Of a DNA stretch of 64,000 bases, positions 114 to 56,700 are shown one piece after another (the stretch's first letter is position 1; each line of letters opens with the position of its first letter). The DNA is from Azospirillaceae bacterium (GTDB lineage: Bacteria > Pseudomonadota > Alphaproteobacteria > Azospirillales > Azospirillaceae): assembly GCA_028283825.1 (NCBI GenBank), contig JAPWJW010000001.1, positions 1,860,001 through 1,924,000 on the forward strand, read 5' to 3'. Both the position numbers and the translations under genes were made by a program. The notes below the pieces were generated by a model, which ran no database searches, was not told where the DNA came from, and saw only the letters and a list, made by a program, of their open reading frames with translations.

Positions 114-370
114 GGGCTTTCCAACTCCGCGCAGGATGGCGGGCCGCGCCGATGCAGCAGGCCCCGTTTCATTTGGTCCGCGTTTGCGATCAGTCCCCGG
201 CCGGGGCGCCGGCGAATGGGCGGCGGGCCGTCGGTGACACTGCGATTTCCTCCCACGGGCGGCACCGCCGCCCTGTTCTGCCATTCATGTATGCTACCAT
301 ACCAGTTGAGGTCAAGAGGGTGTTTGCGGGGCCGTCGCACATTCATGCAATTTGGCCTTCGGGCTCATGT
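114..370. other. intergenic region upstream of manD
   Basis: No convincing gene is seen between the manD start and the structured repeat at 371. It contains the GTATG-N4-CATAC inverted repeat at 289-302 (listed separately), which probably belongs to the manD promoter region. Short open frames here are high-GC shadows without family resemblance. Confidence 0.5.
289..302. promoter_or_regulatory. candidate operator, GTATG-N4-CATAC
   Basis: A perfect 5-bp inverted repeat with a 4-nt spacer (GTATGCTACCATAC) lies about 175 nt upstream of manD. Its reverse complement matches GTATGGTAGTAT at 1775-1787, between the LacI and GntR genes, at 11 of the first 12 positions. The same odd sequence in two regulatory gaps of one sugar-acid locus suggests a shared operator. 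Which of the two regulators binds is not known. Confidence 0.45.
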
Positions 371-532
371 CAGCGGCACAAAATTCTGATTCGTGCCGCT
401 GTAGGCCGCGACTGCGGCTGCCGGGGCTTTACGGGGAGCGTAGCGGACTGGAAAGCGAGGAAGCCCAAGCCGACGGATATCGGCGCCCGGCGCATGAGGG
501 ACGGCATTTGAACGATCACGTTCAAATGCCGT
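371..532 (+). repeat. structured intergenic repeat, copy 1
   Basis: Copy 1 of a five-member family. Hairpins in order: CAGCGGCAC/GTGCCGCTG (371-379 with 393-401); GGCCGC-GACT-GCGGCT; a stem GCTTT/AAAGC around the conserved CGGGGAGCGTAGCGGACTG loop; a GGAT-loop hairpin with stem GCCGA/TCGGC; the conserved GCGCCCGGCG segment; and a perfect 14-bp terminal stem at 501-514 and 519-532 with loop ATCA. It sits between the 3' end of the LacI gene and the start of manD. It is the only copy not between convergent genes. Confidence 0.85.
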
Positions 533-537
533 GCGCA

Positions 538-24526: not shown

Positions 24527-26866
24527 ATGCGTTCGTGTTTCATTTCCGGCCGCAAGCGGTTCATACGCCTTATGGCGGCGACGTCACTTGCCTGCCCGTT
24601 GCTGGCGCCCACCCTGGCACTTGCGGCCGCCGCCGACAACTCCAGCGACGGGCTGGAGGAAATCGTCGTCACCGCCACCCGGCGTGAGGAAAAGCTGTCG
24701 CAGGTCCCGGCCTCCGTCGCGGCCTTCACGCAGGAGAAGATGGACGTGCAGGGCGTGCGCGACATCGACGACATCGCCCGCCTGACGCCCGGCCTGAACT
24801 TCACCCGCCAGAACTATTTCACCGGCAGCAACACCAACATCTCCATCCGCGGCATCCAGTCGGACGTGGGGGCCGCCACCACCGGCATCTATGTCGACGA
24901 CGTGCCCATCCAGGTGCGGGCGCTGGGCTTCAGCTCGGCCAACACCTACCCCAAGATCTTCGACCTGCAACGGGTGGAGGTGCTGCGCGGGCCCCAGGGC
25001 ACGCTGTTCGGCGCCGGTGCCGAGGGCGGTGCCGTCCGCTTCATCACCCCACAGCCCGACCTGGAGAAGTACAGCGGCTATGCCCGCAGCGAGGTGGCGT
25101 TCACCGACGGCGGCGATCCCAGCTATGAGATGGGGGCCGCGGTGGGTGGCCCCATCGTGCAGGACAAGCTCGCTTTCCGCGCCAGCGCCTGGTACCGCCG
25201 CGACGGCGGCTGGGTCGACCGTGACGACCCCGCCACCGGCGCCACGCAGCAGGCCAACGCCAACTACCAGACCAGCAAGGCCGGCAAGCTGGCCTTGACC
25301 TGGGCGCCGACGGAAAACATCCGCGTCACCCCGTCGCTGTATTACCAGGACGTCTACACCAACGACACGTCGGGCTATTGGGAACAGCTGTCCAACCCAG
25401 GCGACGGCCAGTACCGCACCGGCTACACCCTGCAACAGCCGGCGCACGACCGCTATTACCTGCCCTCGCTGACCGTGAACGCGGATTTCGACGGCTTCTC
25501 CCTGACGGCGGTCACGGCCTATTTTGATCGCAACGAACATGAGACGCGCGACTACACCAACTTCGACGCGGAACTGATCGGCACGCCTTACGTCACCCTG
25601 CCGGGGCAGCACGCGCCCGGCTATTTCCAGGACAAGCAGGATAACTTCAGCCAGGAAGTGCGCCTGCAATCCACCGGCAGCGGGCCATTCACCTGGGTGG
25701 CCGGCGCCTATTACGGTCATGAGCACCAGGTCTCCACCCAGCTCAACCAAGACCACTACATGAACACGCTGATCGAGAACGCCACCGGCGGGCTCTACGA
25801 CGTGGCCAGCTGGTACGGCGTGCCCTACCTGGCGGGCGATTACCTCTACGACAGCCGCACCGAAAGCACGACGGAGCAGATCGCCGGCTTCGGCCAGGTC
25901 GACTACGCCATCACCGACGCGCTGAAGGCCACGGTGGGCGTGCGCGTCGCCCACATCCGCCTGACCCACAGCCAGGAGGCGGCGGGCCCCTTCGCCGGCG
26001 GCACCATCGACGAAAGCGGCGCCTCCACCGAAACACCGGTGACGCCCAAGTTCGGCCTGACCTACCAGGTCGATCCCGACAGCATGGTCTACGCCACCGC
26101 GTCCAAGGGCTTCCGCCCCGGCGGCGCGCAGACGGCGGTGCCCGCCAGCTTCTGCGGCGCCGACCTGACCAGCCTGGGCCTGACCAAGTCGCCCACCACC
26201 TACGACAGCGACACCACCTGGTCCTATGAGCTGGGCACCAAGAACAGCCTGCTGGGCGGCCGGGTGCAGACGGAGCTGAGCGGCTATTGGATCAACTGGA
26301 GCAACGTCCAGCGCTCCATCTACCTGTCCAAGTGCGGGTCCAGCTACATCACCAACGCCGGTTCCATCACCTCCAAGGGCATGGACTTGTCGGTGCAGGG
26401 CAAGGTCACCCACAACCTGACCCTGGGCGTGGTGCTGGGCTATAACGACGCCACCTTCGACCAGACGGTGCTGGGCGGGTCGGGTGCGGTCCTGGCGGAC
26501 AAGGGCGAGGCCGCCTACACCGGGCCGAAGTTCACCATGACCATCTCCGGCCAGTACGACTTCACCCTGTCCGACCGTTACGATGGCTACGCCCGCATCG
26601 ACTATTCCTACGCGGGCCCGTCGCCGCAGCAGGACACACAGATTTATTCCTACGACCCCATGCTGACGGTGGCGCCGGACATCAGCACCATCAACATCCG
26701 CACCGGTGTGAAGGTGGACGGCACCGATGTCTCCTTCTTCGTCAACAACCTGACGAACACCCACCCGTCGCTGGGCGCCTTCCACCAGTTCTACGGATCG
26801 CCCCTGCTGACCAACTCCACCCTGCGGCCCCGCACCATGGGCCTGACGGCGACCTACCGTTACTGA
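24527..26866 (+). CDS. TonB-dependent outer-membrane receptor
   Basis: A 779-residue outer-membrane protein with a signal peptide (cleavage near ALAA/A), a TonB box (EEIVVTATRR), a plug domain (VPASVAAFTQEKMDVQGV, NISIRGIQS, VEVLRGPQGTLFGAGAEGG) and a 22-strand-type barrel ending in aromatic TATYRY. These proteins import large or scarce solutes using TonB energy. It follows the aminotransferase in the same direction after a 177-nt gap, so it could have its own promoter. No siderophore genes are near; in this context an oligomer or peptide substrate is more likely than iron, but this is inferred. Confidence 0.92.
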   Translation: MRSCFISGRKRFIRLMAATSLACPLLAPTLALAAAADNSSDGLEEIVVTATRREEKLSQVPASVAAFTQEKMDVQGVRDIDDIARLTPGLNFTRQNYFTGSNTNISIRGIQSDVGAATTGIYVDDVPIQVRALGFSSANTYPKIFDLQRVEVLRGPQGTLFGAGAEGGAVRFITPQPDLEKYSGYARSEVAFTDGGDPSYEMGAAVGGPIVQDKLAFRASAWYRRDGGWVDRDDPATGATQQANANYQTSKAGKLALTWAPTENIRVTPSLYYQDVYTNDTSGYWEQLSNPGDGQYRTGYTLQQPAHDRYYLPSLTVNADFDGFSLTAVTAYFDRNEHETRDYTNFDAELIGTPYVTLPGQHAPGYFQDKQDNFSQEVRLQSTGSGPFTWVAGAYYGHEHQVSTQLNQDHYMNTLIENATGGLYDVASWYGVPYLAGDYLYDSRTESTTEQIAGFGQVDYAITDALKATVGVRVAHIRLTHSQEAAGPFAGGTIDESGASTETPVTPKFGLTYQVDPDSMVYATASKGFRPGGAQTAVPASFCGADLTSLGLTKSPTTYDSDTTWSYELGTKNSLLGGRVQTELSGYWINWSNVQRSIYLSKCGSSYITNAGSITSKGMDLSVQGKVTHNLTLGVVLGYNDATFDQTVLGGSGAVLADKGEAAYTGPKFTMTISGQYDFTLSDRYDGYARIDYSYAGPSPQQDTQIYSYDPMLTVAPDISTINIRTGVKVDGTDVSFFVNNLTNTHPSLGAFHQFYGSPLLTNSTLRPRTMGLTATYRY

Positions 26867-26884
26867 TCGAATCCACTCGAGCTA

Positions 26885-27041
26885 CCAGCGGCACGAGACT
26901 TTGACTCGTGCCGCTGTAGGCTGCGACTGCAGCCGCCGCAGGTTTCCGGGGAACGGAGTGGACTGGAAACCGAGGATTAGCCAAGCCAGCGGATGCTGGC
27001 GCCCGGCGCTTGAGGGGGGCTTTGACCGTGCCCGGTCAAAG
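26885..27041 (+). repeat. structured intergenic repeat, copy 2
   Basis: Best-preserved copy. Hairpin 1: CAGCGGCACGAG/CTCGTGCCGCTG (26886-26897 with 26905-26916). Hairpin 2: GGCTGC-GACT-GCAGCC. Hairpin 3: GGTTTCC/GGAAACC around a GGGGAACGGAGTGGACT loop. Hairpin 4: GCCAGC-GGAT-GCTGGC. Then GCGCCCGGCGCTTGAGG and a terminal hairpin CTTTGACCG-TGCC-CGGTCAAAG. It fills the gap between the convergent TonB receptor and EAL genes, just before a conventional terminator. Confidence 0.88.
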
Positions 27042-27064
27042 GCCACGCATATAACAGAGGGCCT

Positions 27065-42446: not shown

Positions 42447-42542
42447 GGAAGGGAATCGCCCCTGGTGGGGCGTCCGGACTTCAAATCCGGGTGAGGCAGC
42501 GAGACTGTCTCGGGTGGGTTCGACTCCCATTCCCTTCCGCCA
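42447..42542 (+). tRNA. selC: tRNA-Sec (anticodon UCA)
   Basis: A 96-nt tRNA including an encoded CCA end. The acceptor stem is 8 bp (GGAAGGGA with TCCCTTCC) and the discriminator is G. The anticodon stem CCGGA/TCCGG encloses the loop CTTCAAA, with UCA at 42481-42483. A long variable arm follows (GTGAGGCAGCGAGACTGTCTC), diagnostic of selenocysteine tRNA, then the T-arm GGTTCGACTC. It starts only 1 nt after the selB stop, so it must be processed from the selAB transcript or use a promoter inside selB. Confidence 0.97.
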
Positions 42543-42591
42543 CTTCCCCGGGGAACGACGGTGCAGCCGGGGTGATGGGCCCCTTATACGC

Positions 42592-42753
42592 GCGGCATTT
42601 GAACGTGACCGCTCAAATGCCGCCCCTCAAGCGCCGGGCGCGCCCATCCGGTCGCTTGGCTTCCTCAGTTTCCGGTCCACTTTGTTCCCCAGAAACTTCC
42701 GGCGGACGCGGTCGCGTCCTACAGCGGCACGAGTCAGCGTCTCGTGCCGCTGG
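42592..42753 (-). repeat. structured intergenic repeat, copy 3 (minus orientation)
   Basis: Copy 3, read on the minus strand. Hairpin 1 is CAGCGGCACGAG/CTCGTGCCGCTG at 42722-42752. Hairpin 2 is GGACGC-GACC-GCGTCC. Hairpin 3 is AGTTTC/GAAACT around TGGGGAACAAAGTGGACCG. Hairpin 4 is GCGACC-GGAT-GGGCGC with one A-G mismatch. The terminal hairpin (42592-42623) has a GCGGCATTTGA stem. It lies between the convergent selC and the unknown gene ending at 42756, which starts its TAA 3 nt beyond the repeat. Confidence 0.86.
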
Positions 42754-42755
42754 TA

Positions 42756-43847
42756 TTAGTCCGGATACTCAAGCATCCACGTGTTGACGCATACCTTTTC
42801 CCAAGCGTCCGCATCAATTGTCGACATATTGGCCAAGGGGGAGAATTTCCCTATCCGACCATGAAGCAGGCCGGATTCATACCTTAACACGCTTCCGCTC
42901 GGGTTATTTTCATCCGCCAAGCCAACCCATAGCAACTTTGCCGGCCCAATGGACTTCAATAATGAATTGAGTTCCTCCACTTGGGCCAAATCGACGCCCT
43001 CCTGATGGAAGACGAATATCTTTTCCCCATCCTGGATGTCCTCCCGAAGCTTCCTAACGAGAAAGGCCAGACGTCGTCCCTGTTGAGCGAGAACCTTCTC
43101 CGGCGTGGATTCTTGAGCGGTTATAAACGTATGAAAATTAAATTCATAATCAAGATGATCAATCAAATACTCATTACTGTCAGACAGGTGCGTGCTTAAT
43201 TTTGAAGGATCGCCCACCCCATCAAAATCTGCCCTTATCATTCTAAGCAATTGATCGAGATTTATTCCGGCGAGCCGAAGAAGCCCAAGTGGATCTATCC
43301 CACAACGACGCTGAAATAGACCAAACTCACAATTATACCCCAGGCTTTCAAATCTTCCCGCTATCTGCGCACGGCCATCTGCGGCAGTAGATATCGCTTT
43401 CCCTTGAGAAACATTAGTCGATTTTTCTACTGACTCAAAAATCATCTCAAACAAACTAAGACTAATAGGGCGCCAATCGCCGCTATCGGTAATCTCCATG
43501 GGCACCACGAAGTCAGGGTGATATAGTGTAAGTTCGTCCTTGCCATCCGCCCCCAATACTCCGTCGGGAATTTCAAATATAACTCTGCCCCCCTCTGCAA
43601 TGCTTTCGAATTCCACTTGCCCAAACTTAATATCATTAATCAACACCTGAAGTCGCTGAACCGGCCTGATGCGGTGCAGGAACGGGGCAGCGTATATGAT
43701 GATATTCAGTGGGCCGCGAAGATCGGGTAATTTAAGCCTTGAATGAGAACCGGTCATCCAAGTGAACCCATCTTCAGGCCAAGACCAACCATCGACAGTA
43801 TGGTCGCCGGAGTTGCCTTCGCGGCCAAATTTGATGGAAAAAGCCAT
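42756..43847 (-). CDS. unknown protein with SLGYNCEFG motif
   Basis: A 363-residue protein with no signal peptide and no transmembrane segment. The N-terminal 130 residues are beta-rich (WSWPEDGFTWMTGSHSRLKL, VFEIP-type strands). The C-terminal part carries FESLGYNCEFGLFQRRCG, then PLGLLRLAGINLDQLLRMI. I recall similar S-L-G-x-N-C-E-F-G motifs in poorly characterised proteins of surface-polysaccharide clusters, with Cys as a possible functional residue, but no reaction is known to me. Base composition is clearly more AT-rich than its neighbours, which suggests transfer. It follows the ACP and FkbH genes in one direction. ATG 43847 has GAGGG at good spacing; ATG 43865 has none. Confidence 0.72.
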   Translation of the reverse strand: MAFSIKFGREGNSGDHTVDGWSWPEDGFTWMTGSHSRLKLPDLRGPLNIIIYAAPFLHRIRPVQRLQVLINDIKFGQVEFESIAEGGRVIFEIPDGVLGADGKDELTLYHPDFVVPMEITDSGDWRPISLSLFEMIFESVEKSTNVSQGKAISTAADGRAQIAGRFESLGYNCEFGLFQRRCGIDPLGLLRLAGINLDQLLRMIRADFDGVGDPSKLSTHLSDSNEYLIDHLDYEFNFHTFITAQESTPEKVLAQQGRRLAFLVRKLREDIQDGEKIFVFHQEGVDLAQVEELNSLLKSIGPAKLLWVGLADENNPSGSVLRYESGLLHGRIGKFSPLANMSTIDADAWEKVCVNTWMLEYPD

Positions 43848-43919
43848 GCCGAAACCCTCATTCATAACTTAGCGCGTTATGAGATTTTGAAAATTTTGCC
43901 CGCGACCGAATTGTCCGGA

Positions 43920-47682: not shown

Positions 47683-48729
47683 ATGACCACGCAGAAGACC
47701 CACAAGCTTAACCCGATGACCGGCGCGCTGATCGTCGCCCTCATCGCCATCGCCGGCCTTTTCTATGTGAAATGGTCGCCCTATTACGCCCGCGCCTTCG
47801 TGGCAGCCAGCAACCACGCCATCGGCAAGTCCATCCTGATGGGCAATGACGCCGCCGCCCCCGTCCCATCCTGGGACGCGGCGGTGGGCTACGCGCTGGC
47901 CTACGGCAAGGCCATCTGGCAGGCCATGGTGCTGGGCCTGCTGCTGGGCTCCGCCATCCAGGCCTTGCTGCCGGTCAACTGGGTGGCGCGCGCCCTGGGC
48001 CGCACCGGCTTCGGCAGCGTGCTGGCCGGCGGCCTGCTGTCCCTGCCCGGCATGATGTGCACCTGCTGTGCCGCCCCCGTGGTGGTGGGCCTGCGCCGGC
48101 AGCAGGCGTCCCCCGGGGCCGCCATGGCCTTCTGGCTGGGCAACACCGTGCTGAACCCGGCGACGCTGATCTTCATCGGCTTCGTCCTGGGCTGGCAGTG
48201 GACGGGCCTGCGTCTGGCGCTGGGCCTGGTGATGGTCCTGGGCCTGGGCGCGCTGGTCAACCGCTTCAGCCCCATCGCCGACCAGGGTGCCGCATTGCTG
48301 GCGCTTCAGGCGGAGGCGGAAGCCGAGAACCCCTTCGCCCGCTGGCTGCGCATCCTGGGCCGCATGGCCCTGCGCCTGATCCCGGAATATGTGGTGATCG
48401 TCCTGGCGCTGGGGGCCGCCCGCGCCTGGCTGTTCCCCGCCATCGGGCCGGACATCGGCAACAGCTTCATCTGGATCGCCGCCTTCGCCATCGCCGGCAC
48501 CCTGTTCGTCATCCCCACGGCGGGTGAGGTTCCCATCATCCAGGCCATGCTGTCGCTGGGCATGGGGGTCGGCCCCGCCGGCGCCCTGCTGATGACCCTG
48601 CCACCCGTCAGCCTGCCGTCCGTCGCCATGCTGGCCCGGTCCTTCCCGCCCAAGGCCATGGTCATCACCGTCAGCGCCGTGGTGGTGCTGGGCATCGTCA
48701 GCGGCTACCTGGCCGTGGCGCTGTTCTGA
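47683..48729 (+). CDS. COG0701-type inner-membrane permease
   Basis: A 348-residue polytopic membrane protein with about eight helices in two halves. The first half holds LLSLPGMMCTCCAAPVVVGL and GAAMAFWLGNTVLNPATL; the second repeats the pattern (LFVIPTAGEVPIIQAMLSLG). This matches the DUF318/ArsP-related permease family, some members of which export organoarsenicals. The Cys pair C-T-C-C in a membrane segment is notable. It is divergent from selD. A function in moving selenium or other metalloid compounds is possible but only inferred from position. The start at 47683 (MTTQKTHKLNP) precedes the first helix. Confidence 0.8.
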   Translation: MTTQKTHKLNPMTGALIVALIAIAGLFYVKWSPYYARAFVAASNHAIGKSILMGNDAAAPVPSWDAAVGYALAYGKAIWQAMVLGLLLGSAIQALLPVNWVARALGRTGFGSVLAGGLLSLPGMMCTCCAAPVVVGLRRQQASPGAAMAFWLGNTVLNPATLIFIGFVLGWQWTGLRLALGLVMVLGLGALVNRFSPIADQGAALLALQAEAEAENPFARWLRILGRMALRLIPEYVVIVLALGAARAWLFPAIGPDIGNSFIWIAAFAIAGTLFVIPTAGEVPIIQAMLSLGMGVGPAGALLMTLPPVSLPSVAMLARSFPPKAMVITVSAVVVLGIVSGYLAVALF

Positions 48730-48734
48730 GTTTA

Positions 48735-48895
48735 CCAGCGGCACGAGGGTGCACCCTCGTGCCGCTGTAGGCCCCGACGGGGCCGCCGGAGCCTTTCGGG
48801 GAACGTTAGTGGACTGAAAGGCGAGGAAGCCCCAAGCCAGCGGATGCTGGCGCCCGGCGTTTGAGGGGGCCTTTGATCGGTCAAGATCAAAGGCC
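48735..48895 (+). repeat. structured intergenic repeat, copy 4
   Basis: Copy 4. Hairpin 1 is a perfect 32-nt palindrome with 16-bp arms (48736-48767). Hairpin 2 is GGCCCC-GAC-GGGGCC. Hairpin 3 is GCCTTTC/GAAAGGC around CGGGGAACGTTAGTGGACT. Hairpin 4 is GCCAGC-GGAT-GCTGGC. The terminal hairpin GGCCTTTGATC/GATCAAAGGCC (48868-48895) covers the stop codon of the convergent CPBP gene (48887-48889). It begins 5 nt after the permease stop. Confidence 0.88.
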
Positions 48896-49786
48896 GCGCG
48901 GTACCCGCACTTTGGCCACGCCGCGCGGCGTGGTCACCGTCAGCGCCGCGAAAGCGCACAGCACGGCGATGAAGGCGAAGACGCTGCCTTCCGGGCCGAC
49001 GGCGCCGCCGGTGATCCAATCGGACCCGGCGGGGGTGAAATCCAGCAAGTGCCCCCGATCCAGATAGCCGCTGCCGGCCGCCCCGAACAGCGGCGCGCTG
49101 GCCCAGTTCCAGCCGGTGTGATAGCCGGTGGACCACCAGAACGATCCCGTGCGGTAGACGGCATAGGCCAGCAGCGCGCCTTGCAGGAATAGCCGCACCA
49201 GCCAGATCGTGGTGGCGCCGGGATTGCCCAGGTGCAGGACGGAAAACATCAGGCCGGACACCAGCACGGCGCCGCGCCAGCCGACGAAACGTTCGGCGAT
49301 CAACACCACGGCCACGCGGCCGAACAGTTCCTCGCCCATGGCGCCGATGAAATCGAACACGAACCAGCCGGTGCCGTTCAGCACGGCGGCCCCCGCCGAT
49401 TGCCGCCCCACCGCCACCGTGGCGCTACCGGTCGCGAGGATGGCCAGGATGGCGGCGATCATCACGGCAAGGCCGGTGACGATGCCGATTCCGGCGAACC
49501 GCAGGGCCTTGGGCGCCAGCAGCGGCGGCCCGTCCAGGCGATAGCCCAGGATGGCGCACACCCCGGCGACGACCGCCATGTCCAGGATCAGCCGCACGAT
49601 CATCCGCACCGCATAGGGCGGCAGGCCCATGGCGCCATCGGTGATGGTGTGCAGGTCGAACGCCACCGCCAGGGGGTGGTAGAGCGCATGTTCAACCGTA
49701 TCGAACAAGAAATAGGCCGCGACTAGGAACACCAGCCCCAGCCATCGCCGCAAGGGCCCCCATTCGACGGCGACGGATGATGCCAT
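48887..49786 (-). CDS. CPBP-family intramembrane metalloprotease
   Basis: A 299-residue membrane protein with about eight hydrophobic segments. The CPBP (Abi/CAAX protease-like) motifs are GEELFGRVAVVL (EExxxR), MFSVLHLGNP (FxxxH) and GYHTGWNWASAP (HxxxN-type). Roles in bacteria range from protein processing to bacteriocin immunity; no target is visible. The ATG at 49786 (MASSVAVEWGPLRRW) directly precedes the first helix; an extension to 49960 has no features. The last codons and stop lie in the terminal hairpin of repeat copy 4. Confidence 0.85.
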   Translation of the reverse strand: MASSVAVEWGPLRRWLGLVFLVAAYFLFDTVEHALYHPLAVAFDLHTITDGAMGLPPYAVRMIVRLILDMAVVAGVCAILGYRLDGPPLLAPKALRFAGIGIVTGLAVMIAAILAILATGSATVAVGRQSAGAAVLNGTGWFVFDFIGAMGEELFGRVAVVLIAERFVGWRGAVLVSGLMFSVLHLGNPGATTIWLVRLFLQGALLAYAVYRTGSFWWSTGYHTGWNWASAPLFGAAGSGYLDRGHLLDFTPAGSDWITGGAVGPEGSVFAFIAVLCAFAALTVTTPRGVAKVRVPRGL

Positions 49787-49996
49787 GGCGGAGCCTGCCT
49801 TTGATCGTGAGAGTGCGTACCGGCTGTCAGTAGCCGGCACCGGCGCCGAACGCCAGTGCCGCATGATGGGAGGCGCACTGGGGCCACGGCCATCCCGGAA
49901 CGGTTGGTCCGGAGTGTCCCGCATTTCACGCCATTTATCTTCAGCAAGGCGCATCCCCATCTTCAGTCACACCAATCAATCTGGAGTGACGGCCAA

Positions 49997-50989
49997 ATGG
50001 CACGCGTCGTTCGTTTTTGCGAGTATGGGGGACCGGAGGTCCTGCGCATCGAGGATGTGGACGTTCCCGCCCCCAAGCCGGGACAGGTGCAGATCCAGGT
50101 CAAGGCGCTGGGCCTGAACCGGGCGGAATCCATGCTGCGCACCGGCCACTATGTCGAGGCGCCGAAATCCTGGCCCTGCGGCCTGGGGTATGAGGCGGCG
50201 GGCGTGGTGGCGGCCCTGGGCGCGGATGTCTCGGGCTTCACCGTCGGCGACGCCGTCAGCGTGGTGCCGGCGGACTCCCAGATCGGCTGGCCGGCTTATG
50301 GCGAACTGGCCAATTTCGAACAGCACCTGGTGGTGAAGCATCCACCGACGCTCAGTTGGGAAGAGGCGGCCGCCACCTGGATGCAGTACGTCACGGCCTA
50401 CGGTGCGCTGATCGACCTGGCCGGGCTGGGCAAGGGCGATTTCGTCGCCATCACCGCCGCCAGCAGCAGCGTCGGCCTGGCCGCCATCCAGATCGCCCGC
50501 ATGGTGGGCGCCACCCCCATCGCCGTCACCCGCACCCATGCCAAGTGCCCGGCCCTGCTGGACGCCGGTGCCGCCCACGTCGTGGCCAGCGCGGAGGAGG
50601 ATCTGGAGGCACGGCTGAAACAGATCGCGGGCCCCACCGGCGTGCGCGTGGTGTTCGACCCCATTGGCGGCCCGGCCTTCGTGCCCCTGACCGCCGCCAT
50701 GTCCCGGGGCGGCATCCTGATCGAATACGGCGCGCTGAGCCCGGAGGCGACACCCTTCCCCCTGTTCAACGTGCTGGGCAAAAGCCTGACGCTGCGGGGC
50801 TATCTCTACAATGAGGTCACCAGCGATCCGGAACGGCTGAATGCCGCCAAGGCCTTCATCGTGGACGGCCTGGCATCAGGCGCGTTGAAACCCATCATCG
50901 CCCGCACCTTCGCCTTCGACGACATCGCCGAGGCCCACCGCTACCTGGAATCGAACCAGCAGTTCGGCAAGCTGGTCGTGAGGGTGTAG
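49997..50989 (+). CDS. zinc-type alcohol dehydrogenase-like quinone oxidoreductase
   Basis: A 330-residue medium-chain dehydrogenase/reductase. N-terminal GroES-like domain (VVRFCEYGGPEVLRIEDVDV, LGYEAAGVVAALGADVSGF) and a Rossmann domain (AASSSVGLAAIQIARMVGAT). The structural zinc cysteines are absent, so it belongs to the quinone oxidoreductase branch; it probably reduces quinones or enones with NADPH. The stop codon TAG is supplied by repeat copy 5 (TGTAGGCTGCGAC), so the C-terminus ends exactly at the repeat junction. Confidence 0.88.
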   Translation: MARVVRFCEYGGPEVLRIEDVDVPAPKPGQVQIQVKALGLNRAESMLRTGHYVEAPKSWPCGLGYEAAGVVAALGADVSGFTVGDAVSVVPADSQIGWPAYGELANFEQHLVVKHPPTLSWEEAAATWMQYVTAYGALIDLAGLGKGDFVAITAASSSVGLAAIQIARMVGATPIAVTRTHAKCPALLDAGAAHVVASAEEDLEARLKQIAGPTGVRVVFDPIGGPAFVPLTAAMSRGGILIEYGALSPEATPFPLFNVLGKSLTLRGYLYNEVTSDPERLNAAKAFIVDGLASGALKPIIARTFAFDDIAEAHRYLESNQQFGKLVVRV

Positions 50990-51089
50990 GCTGCGACCGC
51001 AGCCGCCGGAAGTTTTCGGGGAGCGTAGCGGACTGAAAACTGAGGATAAGCCAAGCCAGCGGATGCTGGCGCCCGGCGTTTGAGGGGGC
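50985..51089 (+). repeat. structured intergenic repeat, copy 5 (partial)
   Basis: A shortened copy lacking hairpin 1 and the terminal hairpin. It retains hairpin 2 (GGCTGC-GACC-GCAGCC), hairpin 3 (AGTTTTC/GAAAACT around CGGGGAGCGTAGCGGACT), hairpin 4 (GCCAGC-GGAT-GCTGGC) and the GCGCCCGGCGTTTGAGGGGG tail. Its first bases contain the stop codon of the quinone oxidoreductase gene. A normal terminator follows 16 nt later. Confidence 0.85.
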
Positions 51090-51104
51090 ATGATCAAATA
51101 AAAA

Positions 51105-51131
51105 CGGCCCCGGTTGCGCCAACCGGGGCCG
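51105..51131. terminator. bidirectional rho-independent terminator
   Basis: CGGCCCCGGTT-GCGCC-AACCGGGGCCG is a perfect 11-bp stem. It has AAAA before it and TCTTCTTTTCC after it, giving a U-rich tail on both strands. It separates the convergent quinone oxidoreductase and fdhE genes. Confidence 0.85.
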
Positions 51132-53736: not shown

Positions 53737-56700
53737 GCGGTCCCCACCTTCTTGTTACGCGGCCCCTGGGCCACGTCGATCGCCGGCGGCGGGCTGGTCT
53801 TCTCGATGTTCAGCAAGAAGGCCTTGAACTCCGGCGTGTTGGTGTTGGCGTCACCGACGAAGGGCGTCAGCGTGTTGGCGCCGTAGCCCTTGCGCGCGAC
53901 ACCGGTGAAGCCCCAGTGGATGGGACAGCCGATGACGTGCGTCGCCTTGCCGTCCACCATCAGCGGCTTGATGCGCTTGGTCACGAAGGCCTTGCAGATC
54001 ACCTGGCCGCGCTTGGACGACACCTTGACCCAACCGCCCTGCTCGATGCCCTTCTCCTTGGCCAGGACCTCGCCGATCTCAACGAATTCCTCCGGCTGGA
54101 GGATGGCGTTGATCAGCGAGTGCTTGGTCCAATAGTGGAAGTGCTCCGTCAGGCGGTAGGTGGTGCCGACGTAGGGGAAGTCCTGCGAGTTGCCCATCTG
54201 CTTCCGGTCGGAAGCGAAGACGCGGGCGGCCGGGTTGGACTTCACCTTGGGGTGCAGCACGTTTTCCGACGGGCTCTCGAACGGCTCGTAATGCTCGGGG
54301 AACGGACCTTCCACCATCATGCCACGGGCGAACAGGCGACCCTGCCCTTCCGCGTTCATGATGAACGGGCCGACGCTGTCCGACGGCTTCACCGTCGGGC
54401 CATAGTCGGGCACGTCCAGCCCCACCCACTTGGACCCGTTCCAGTGGATGATGGGCTTTTCCGGATTCCACGGCTTGCCGTCCAGGTCCGCGCTGGCGCG
54501 GTTGTACAGGATGCGGCGGTTGGCCGGCCAGGCCCAGGCCCAGTTGGGGGCGATGCCCGCCTCACGGGGGTCCGACGCGTCGCGCCGGGCCATCTGGTTG
54601 CCCTTTTCCGTCCAGCAGCCGGCGAAAATCCAGCAGCCCGACATGGTGGTGCCGTCGTCGCGCAGCTGGGCGAAACCGTCCAGCAGCTGCCCGGCCTTCA
54701 TCACCACAGCCCCGGTGTCGTCCTTGATATCGACCAGGGCCCGCCCGTTCATCTCCTTCGCCAGTTCCTCCGGGGAGGGTTCGCCCGGATCGGTGTAGGA
54801 CCAGCTCAAGTTCAGGATGGGGTCGGGGAAGGCGCCGCCGTCCTTGGCGTACATCGCCTTCATGCGGTTGTAGATGCCGGCCATGATCCACAGGTCGGGC
54901 TTGGCCTCGCCCGGCGCGTCGGCGGCCTTCCAGTGCCACTGCAGCCAGCGCGCGGAGTTGACGAGCGAGCCGTCCTCTTCCGCGAAGCAGGTGGTGGGAA
55001 GCTGGAACACCTCCGTCTGGATTTCATCCGGGTTGGCCGGGTTCTGCGGACCGTAGTCCTGCCAGAAGTTGGCCGTCTCGGTATCCAGCGGATCCATGAC
55101 GACCAGGTACTTCAGCTTCGACAGACCCCGGCGGATCTTGCCCCGGTCGGGGAAGGCCTGCATGGGGTTGAAGCCCTGGCAGATGTAACCGTTCATCTGC
55201 CCGTTGTTCATCATCTCGAACGCGCGCAGCACGTCGTAGCCGTCCACGTCCAGCTTGGGCAGCCAGTCGTAGGCCCAGTTGTTCTCGGCCTTGGCGGCGT
55301 CGCCGTACAGGGCCTTCTGGAAGCTGACGAAGAACTTGCGGTAGTTCTGCCAGTAGCTGGTCTGTCCAGGCCGCAAGGGCTTGAACAGCTTGGTTTCCAT
55401 GTACTTGTCCAGGGTGACTTCGCTGTCCTTCGGGATGTTCATGTATCCCGGCAACAGGTTGGACATCAGGCCGACGTCCGTCAGCCCCTGGATGTTGGAA
55501 TGGCCGCGCAACGCGTTCATGCCGCCGCCGGCGATGCCGATGTTACCCAGCAGCAGCTGGATCATCGCCATGGCGCGGATGTTCTGCGCGCCCACCGAGT
55601 GCTGCGTCCAGCCCAGCGCGAACAGGCTGGTCAGGGCCTTGTGCGGGCTGGAGGTGGCGGCGATGATCTTGCAGATCTCCAGGTACTTGTCCTGGGGCGT
55701 ACCGCAGATGCGGGACACCACCTCGGGCGTGTACCGATCAACATGCTTTTTCAGCAGGTTGATGACGCAGCGCGGGTGCTGCCAGGTGTCGTCCGACTTG
55801 GCGAACCCTTGCTCGTCCAGCTCGTAATCCCAGCTGGCCTTGTCGTAGGTGCGCTTTTCCTCGTCATAGCCGGTGAACAGGCCATCCTCGAACCCGAAGC
55901 CTTCCTTCACGATCAGGCCGGCATTGGTATAGGCCTTGGTGTAGGCGTGCTGGATCGCATCGTTCTCCAGCAGATAGCGCATGACGCCACTGAGGAAAGC
56001 GATGTCGGTGCCCGGCCGGATGGGGGCGTAGACGTCGGCGACGGACGCCGTGCGGGTGAAGCGGGGATCGACAACGACCAGCTTGGCCTTGTTCTCGATC
56101 TTGGCCTCGATCACCCATTTGAAACCGCAAGGATGCGCCTCGGCAGCATTGCCGCCCATGACAAGCACGACATCAGCGTTCTTGATGTCCTGCCAGGTGT
56201 TGGTCATCGCACCGCGACCGAATGATGGGGCCAAACTGGCCACCGTCGGTCCGTGTCAGACACGCGCCTGGTTGTCGAACGCAAGCATGCCCAGCGAACG
56301 GGCGACCTTCCAAGTGGCGAAGGCCGTCTCGCTGGAGGAAGCGGAGGCAGCCAGCATGCCGGTGGACAGCCACCGGTTGACGGTGGTGCCCGACGCGTTC
56401 TTCTCGATGAAGTTGGCGTCGCGATCCTGCTTCATCAGCGTGGCGATGCGGTCCAGGGCGAAGTCCCAGGACACTTCCTTCCACTCATGCCCGCCGGCGG
56501 CGCGGTACTTCGGCATGGACAGGCGGCCCGGGGCGCGCACGATATCCAGCAAGCCGGCACCCTTCGGGCACAGCGTGCCGCGGTTCACGGGATGGTCCGG
56601 ATCACCCTCGATATGGATGACCGAGGACTTCACGTTCTTCGCGCGGTCGCCCTGGCTGTAGATCAGAATGCCGCAGGCCACCGAGCAATAGGTGCAGGTG

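Follow-up and report, generated by a model that had tools for sequence, protein, structure and literature searches.

Judging from the portions of the literature drawn on here, the described systems nearest to the repeat of this work are the REP/RAYT elements (PMC8266576), the CGTC REPs of Alphaproteobacteria (PMC3733652), and, more generally, MITEs (PMC10969869). In the relevant passages of PMC3733652, REPs are single palindromes of 20-40 bp. The same passages characterize the CGTC REPs as mostly alphaproteobacterial sequences that lie at gene ends, form head-to-head dimers, and have no associated transposase; their hairpin combines a CGTC tag, an 8-9 bp stem starting with AT, a 4-5 nt loop, and a CCA tail. 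How REPs spread without a RAYT is an open point raised there for the CGTC REPs. According to an excerpt of another paper, RepRanger counts many REPs in an alphaproteobacterium (PMC12306157).

We analyzed a stretch of 64 kb (C1:1860001-1924000, hereafter the window) from a host genome of 7.16 Mb in five contigs. An earlier note on this DNA had described five copies of a repeat consisting of a chain of hairpins. All five are present where it placed them, and a covariance model (R1; 159 positions, 47 pairs) built from 11 copies of the own genome gives five strong matches in the window. The hairpin chain, with its loops and stem variants, can be read in the sequence of the copies, which are organized as follows.

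368..537, plus strand: copy 1, full form (R1 match 369-529); ends TGTCAGCGGC...GTGCGCA
26883..27051, plus strand: copy 2, full form, the copy at the center of this study (R1 match 26884-27043); ends TACCAGCGG...GCATA
26886..26916, plus strand: hairpin 1 of copy 2, 12 bp
26919..26934, plus strand: hairpin 2 of copy 2, GACT loop
26941..26971, plus strand: hairpin 3 of copy 2, internal loop GGGGA/GGACT and an apical mini-hairpin
26985..27000, plus strand: hairpin 4 of copy 2, GGAT loop
27010..27015, plus strand: conserved TTGAGG of copy 2, which closes the core
27020..27041, plus strand: last hairpin (H6) of copy 2, arms CTTTGACCG/CGGTCAAAG; found in the full form only
42587..42755, minus strand: copy 3, full form (R1 match 42595-42754); ends TACC...GCGTA
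48733..48903, plus strand: copy 4, full form (R1 match 48734-48894); ends TACC...GGTA
50986..51089, plus strand: copy 5, core (R1 match 50955-51107); hairpin 1 absent, end degenerate

The R1 scan of the window gave no sixth strong copy. Its weak additional matches at E <= 0.01, 26735-26918 (34 bits) and 48869-48973 (19 bits), are both on the minus strand and both overlap real copies. The fold of copy 2 (26885-27050) has a z-score of -5.58, and 0 of 200 shuffles fold as well. The flanks differ from copy to copy. A TCA duplication, read directly in the sequence, borders copy 1 (365-367 and 538-540), and TAA is found on both sides of copy 3 (42756-42758 and 42584-42586). The left TAA of copy 3 is the end of a 369-aa ORF (42756-43865, minus strand) that has a weak coding score and was not called as a gene; because this ORF codes weakly, copy 3 was kept out of the 21 stop-codon cases given below. 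Copy 2 is flanked by AGC on the left and TAA on the right and thus has no intact duplication. Copy 4, the first base of which lies 3 bp past a stop codon, is without a TNA duplication, and the TAG stop of the ORF next to copy 5 (49856-50989) comes from the copy's own GTAG. A selenocysteine tRNA (42447-42538, plus strand) adjoins copy 3, and a SECIS_3 element lies at 56203-56261 (minus strand).

The full form spans ∼170 bp. It starts with TACCA and hairpin 1, followed by (G)TAGG, hairpin 2 (loop GACY), hairpin 3, and the segment GAGGA..GCC.AAG. The 3′ part comprises hairpin 4 (loop GGAT), C(C)GGCG NN TGAGG, and the last hairpin, and ends in ...GTAT. The core that is common across Alphaproteobacteria is composed of a GACY-loop hairpin, a variable hairpin, AGCCAAG, a CGGA-loop hairpin, and C(C)GGCGNNTGAGG. 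In this genus, hairpin 3 is interrupted by the internal loop GGGGA/GGACT and topped by an RC(GNA)GY hairpin, in which one of the two pairs shows changes on both sides among the 11 own-genome copies. This apical mini-hairpin and the last hairpin with its ...GTAT ends are additions to the earlier description. A core-only form is without the TACCA and last-hairpin ends, and both forms were recognized by eye in this genome. Core-only copies possess an A-rich tail at their 3′ side (at least 6 A in 12 nt in 93/160 copies versus 13/160 further downstream; 160 of 295 copies were used for tail and flank statistics), which is independent of the orientation of the next gene. At two loci of genome G030 (L386 and L390), full-form ends (TACCAAGCGCAT...GATCAACGGC) accompany a rearranged or replaced core; therefore, ends and core can separate.

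That the shape is conserved by compensating changes, as the earlier note had claimed, is supported by the covariation in the family. The ten strongest APC-corrected covarying column pairs among 171 non-redundant copies are all located in hairpins 2, 3, and 4. These 171 were drawn from 337 copies, 219 of which had a recognized hairpin 2; because hairpin 2 was located by pairing, its signal is partly selected for. In the 11 own-genome copies, 98.1% of the pairs in the 47-pair structure are standard, 16 pairs show both-side changes (8.0 in shuffles), and the covariation score is 0.291 versus 0.122 +/- 0.012, a value reached by 0/500 shuffles. The score rises to 0.544 versus 0.130 +/- 0.017 in 37 diverse copies (set A6), 35 of which were chosen for at least 5/6 hairpin-2 pairs and a short hairpin 3, a choice of rows that favors hairpin 2. 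Hairpin 4 was located by its flanking words and GGA, not by pairing, and only the loop length was chosen for best pairing; here, 95.2% of the pairs are Watson-Crick (330 copies, 133 distinct hairpins, GGA loop), compared with 59.6% when the arms are shuffled among copies. Taken together, these comparisons show a multi-helix fold that is kept by compensating changes. A long-range stem, GCCGG/CCGGC, was also considered. Its cells are 94.5% paired in the genus, yet it has no compensating change there, and it is missing from the listed 45 strongest pairs of the wide set; it was dropped.

The earlier note further proposed that the shape is selected as RNA or as extruded DNA. The part on shape stands, whereas the evidence on RNA or DNA is divided: the scarce G.T pairs and the equal folding of both strands argue against a plain RNA reading, and tandem G.A points to one strand. 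The mismatches in hairpin 4 include 23 G.T in 1,975 pairs and 11 A.C, so that G.T is rarer there (1.2%) than G-U in the stems of 30 tRNAs from the retrieved loci (35/635, 5.5%). The idea that the sense strand is more stable than the antisense strand was rejected; both fold equally (mean difference 0.77 kcal/mol), with the sense strand lower in only 75/160. Tandem 5′-GA/5′-GA pairs number 17, spread over 14 loci outside this genus, against 0 tandem TC/TC pairs, which suggests that one strand is the folded one. The type of mismatch and the loops thus single out one strand.

The covariance-model search of the genome and its relatives that had been proposed earlier returned at least 150 own-genome copies, all at E <= 8.2e-22, and R1 matches in 37/99 relatives, among them each of the 7 genomes of the genus. 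In two contiguous stretches of this genome (864 kb), 90 copies were counted, 60 of them on C3 (400 kb sampled) and 30 on C1 (464 kb sampled) (matches of at least 43.8 bits, out of 111 at E <= 0.01). At this density of one copy per 9.6 kb, a rough extrapolation gives ∼750 copies per genome if the stretches are typical. The core pattern was found in at least 120 stretches of bacterial genomes and in 69 of viral contigs. Going by known names, we take the titles of the bacterial stretches to be all alphaproteobacterial, except for metagenome bins (isolates B17T1B10 and SKS4.bin33) whose titles say no more than "Proteobacteria bacterium". A wider model, R2, matched 15/397 genomes of the phylum, the own genome included, and all 15 belong to the same class; because 12 candidates per genome were scored, its misses are weak evidence. 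Plasmid records with a match numbered 2 and 9, and no feature of the (incomplete) gene table lies under the matches listed. No match to the L225 pair (see below) was found in phages, and a search for related loci by neighboring gene found nothing. One 47.9-kb viral contig (L209, L249, and L252) holds 22 pattern matches (6, 9, and 7, respectively), several of them in tandem arrays of 108-116 bp units.

Two MITE traits, terminal inverted repeats and a target-site duplication, are found in the full form only: comparison of the flanks shows that complete copies have TACCA...TGGTA as their ends and a 3-bp TNA duplication around them. TNA is present on both sides of 30/60 full-form candidates, and its middle base is equal in 27 of these 30 (9.5 expected); 33 of the 60 TACC-hairpin candidates are without a demonstrated equal TNA pair. 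A strict pattern recovers both ends in 5 copies of the 864 kb, 4 of them with an equal TNA, so in most own copies the ends are decayed or variant. Around core-only copies, no clear duplication was found (shared words of at least 8 nt in 12.5% versus 7.2% of controls, partly from tandem arrays), nor was there an excess of inverted flanks.

Two copies are shown to be missing from syntenic sites in six congeners. After the gene at 47683-48729 of the window, the copy at 48735 is absent in 6/6 congeners as judged by eye, one of which carries an independent inverted core at this site. At trxA (named by eye), a TGA stands on either side of the own copy, and the first of the two is the stop codon of the gene; 6/6 congeners have the gene without a copy. 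The flank past the gene is not alignable, so the absence at the two sites is not base-exact. The duplications, the terminal repeats, the syntenic absence, the stop-codon site described next, and the A-rich tail were missed by the earlier note, and they speak for a mobile element and against a group of RNA genes.

The TNA coincides with the stop codon of a coding frame in 21/47 full forms (as judged with an own-genome codon model), compared with 609/5,510 non-coding TNA sites (11.1%) in the 864 kb that are stop codons. Copies are shown to be located at the 3′ ends of genes, in many cases precisely on a stop codon, which is preserved by the duplication. The preference for stop codons could be a matter of survivorship. 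Within the own genome, 50/90 copies lie between convergent genes and 5/90 between divergent genes, whereas convergent and divergent pairs flank 50/285 and 88/285 of the intergenic gaps of at least 150 bp, respectively (gap classes from gene calls made in this analysis). A called gene is overlapped by more than 20 nt in 12/90 copies. At genome loci elsewhere, the flanking genes are oriented (-,-) in 33, (+,-) in 32, (+,+) in 22, and (-,+) in 14 cases, and the orientation is mixed; 32/101 classified copies are convergent versus 54/312 gaps. The corresponding numbers in viral contigs are 46 (-,-), 10 (+,-), 36 (+,+), and 6 (-,+). These counts cover 101/131 genome copies and 98/112 viral copies.

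Where neighboring copies lie less than 400 nt apart, 12 cases are head-to-head and 24 are in tandem; many of the tandem cases come from one viral contig. No tail-to-tail arrangement was found. Five loci (L222, L225, L258, L268, and L215) contain head-to-head core pairs amid phage- or GTA-like structural genes; the families HK97 portal, capsid, and "phage/gene transfer agent" baseplate were identified in L225, the one locus tested. In four of these viral-contig loci, the pair occupies a shared site adjoining the portal gene, and we take the four GTA-like clusters to be sphingomonad. The left copy of this pair has four different sets of hairpin-4 arms, each complementary, and the right copy is paired in three loci and broken in L258. 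From these arms, the pair looks like one maintained in situ.

The combination of a TNA duplication with terminal inverted repeats suggests that a DDE transposase is involved. A 3-bp TNA target is typical of IS5/IS1031-type elements, and genes of family PF13340, which we take to be an IS5-type transposase, are present in 7/7 genomes of the genus. The own genome harbors an IS5-type insertion sequence in three copies (L424, L427, and L428) with an identical stretch of 936 bp, ends GAGCCTGG...GGACTC, and TNA duplications TTA, TAA, and TCA. This insertion sequence was rejected as the autonomous partner of the repeat, as it has GAGCCTG ends and not TACCA. No autonomous partner was found in G030, where all 15 exact left ends belong to short elements (13 by coordinates, 2 read). 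Two other helpers were dismissed. The Y1 transposase (PF01797) of a HUH/RAYT system occurs in 0/7 genomes of the genus (27/99 relatives have one), and a reverse transcriptase (PF00078), found in 4/7 genomes of the genus including the own genome, is absent from the other 3 and was rejected as a general helper.

The repeat is probably, and we say so with moderate confidence, a non-autonomous REP/MITE-like element of which a single strand must fold, this folded strand serving as the recognition unit, and which is moved in trans by a putative DDE transposase. This reading is favored because of the TNA duplication and terminal inverted repeats, the lack of Y1, the partial occurrence of the reverse transcriptase, and the absence of a partner in G030. 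A putative DDE transposase with a 3-bp stagger would act on the repeat in trans, the TNA chemistry being that of IS1031-type IS5 enzymes. Insertion at a TNA (TAA, TGA, or complements) at gene ends would be tolerated, since it restores the stop codon. Either the helper or a factor of the host may bind the folded strand (ssDNA at the fork, or RNA), and such binding would conserve the loops and single-stranded words but let the stems drift. We consider it doubtful that the repeat represents a new kind of mobile element, with a multi-helix folded nucleic acid instead of just terminal hairpins as the recognition unit, SINE-like or folded as ssDNA, A-tailed at its core, spread via Alphaproteobacteria and GTA/prophage clusters without a HUH transposase, and harmless by landing on stop codons.

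A host-selected, cis-acting RNA of mRNA 3′ ends (stabilizer, processing site, or terminator aid), for which mobility would only be the source of copies, appears unlikely. It agrees with the conserved loops, the one-strand tandem G.A, the stem compensation seen at one site of the GTA-like clusters, and the location at gene 3′ ends and in convergent gaps of the own genome, a location that is less pronounced elsewhere (32/101 versus 54/312). However, outside the genus, orientation is not tied to transcription (33 (-,-) versus 22 (+,+) in genomes, 46 versus 36 in viral contigs), orthologous gene ends at two sites do without a copy in 6/6 congeners, G.T in hairpin 4 falls short of G-U in tRNA (1.2% versus 5.5%), and the core-only tail is A-rich, not U-rich. 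Neither the constant loops and single-stranded words (AGCCAAG, CGGA, and TGAGG) across families nor the substitution of tandem G.A for pairs on just one strand (17 versus 0) are explained if palindrome arms copy each other by template switching (quasi-palindrome correction) without selection. Such a mutational origin of the covariation is distinctly unlikely, even though it fits the rarity of G.T intermediates relative to tRNA stems, the dominance of C-G to G-C swaps, and the equal folding of sense and antisense. Strand-specific structure and a 3′ tail that is A-rich (93/160 versus 13/160) irrespective of the orientation of the next gene are reminiscent of a SINE-like retroposon, the folded RNA of which, with its A-rich 3′ end, is reverse-transcribed into new sites. 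This origin is very improbable: PF00078 is absent from 3/7 genomes of the genus, every one of which has at least 30 copies, the full forms combine terminal inverted repeats with a TNA duplication of constant length (3 bp), which fits DDE transposition, and no clear duplication of variable length surrounds core-only copies. That the repeat belongs, as a divergent case, to one of the palindromic families already described (GTAG REP/RAYT, CGTC REP, or ERIC) is scarcely credible from a comparison with the REP/RAYT elements and the CGTC REPs. GTAG does precede hairpin 2 in the own-genome core, and the CGTC REPs, in the passages mentioned, have similar habits (gene ends, head-to-head dimers, and no dedicated transposase; PMC3733652). 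Yet, by the same passages, single 20-40 bp REP palindromes are opposed to 4-6 helices here, and the 8-9 bp CGTC stems with CCA tails are unlike this anatomy (PMC3733652); the Y1 transposase of REP/RAYT systems is missing from 7/7 genomes of the genus.

No repeat copy of the window or of 10 loci matched any of 4,227 Rfam families at gathering score, in agreement with the earlier view that the repeat is not a known Rfam family. In E-value mode, run on three copies or pairs, the best match was Pseudomon-groES (27 bits, E 0.003) on the opposite strand, below the gathering score of that family (50). A described family with this core was not found in open-licence PMC text; the repeat matches no described family found in Rfam or open PMC text. 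It shares covarying helices and fixed loops with the structured RNAs of Rfam and differs from them in that no family matched among the copies tested. Its density in the 864 kb sampled (one copy per 9.6 kb) makes it one of the major intergenic features of this genome, and no Rfam family describes it. It offers, in each genome, a natural set of many stem variants with fixed loops that is suited to R-scape, SHAPE, and binding tests.

Like IS5/IS1031-type MITEs, the repeat is short, bounded by terminal inverted repeats, without a visible gene, and flanked by a TNA duplication, and an IS5-type element with a TNA duplication exists in the own genome. In contrast to such MITEs, its TACCA/TGGTA is not matched by the own-genome insertion sequence, and its interior fold covaries across families, a trait that we do not know from ordinary MITEs. 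It resembles REP/REPINs with their RAYT (TnpAREP) in its numerous intergenic copies next to the 3′ ends of genes, in its folded strand, and in its head-to-head pairs. It is not a REP/RAYT element: it folds into several helices where a REP has a single 20-40 bp palindrome, 0/7 genomes of the genus have the Y1 HUH transposase, and it carries terminal inverted repeats with a TNA duplication; HUH enzymes, to our knowledge, leave no duplication. A single short GTAG-tagged palindrome was not found; GTAG stands before hairpin 2 in own-genome copies but is missing there from most of the diverse ones. The CGTC REPs, as far as the passages on them go, are likewise mostly alphaproteobacterial, form head-to-head dimers, and have no associated transposase; they are set apart, by eye and by that description, as single hairpins without the GACY/CGGA/TGAGG core, and the consensus of this core has no CGTC tag, no 8-9 bp stem starting with AT, and no CCA tail. 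The repeat could show how REP-like repeats spread without a RAYT.
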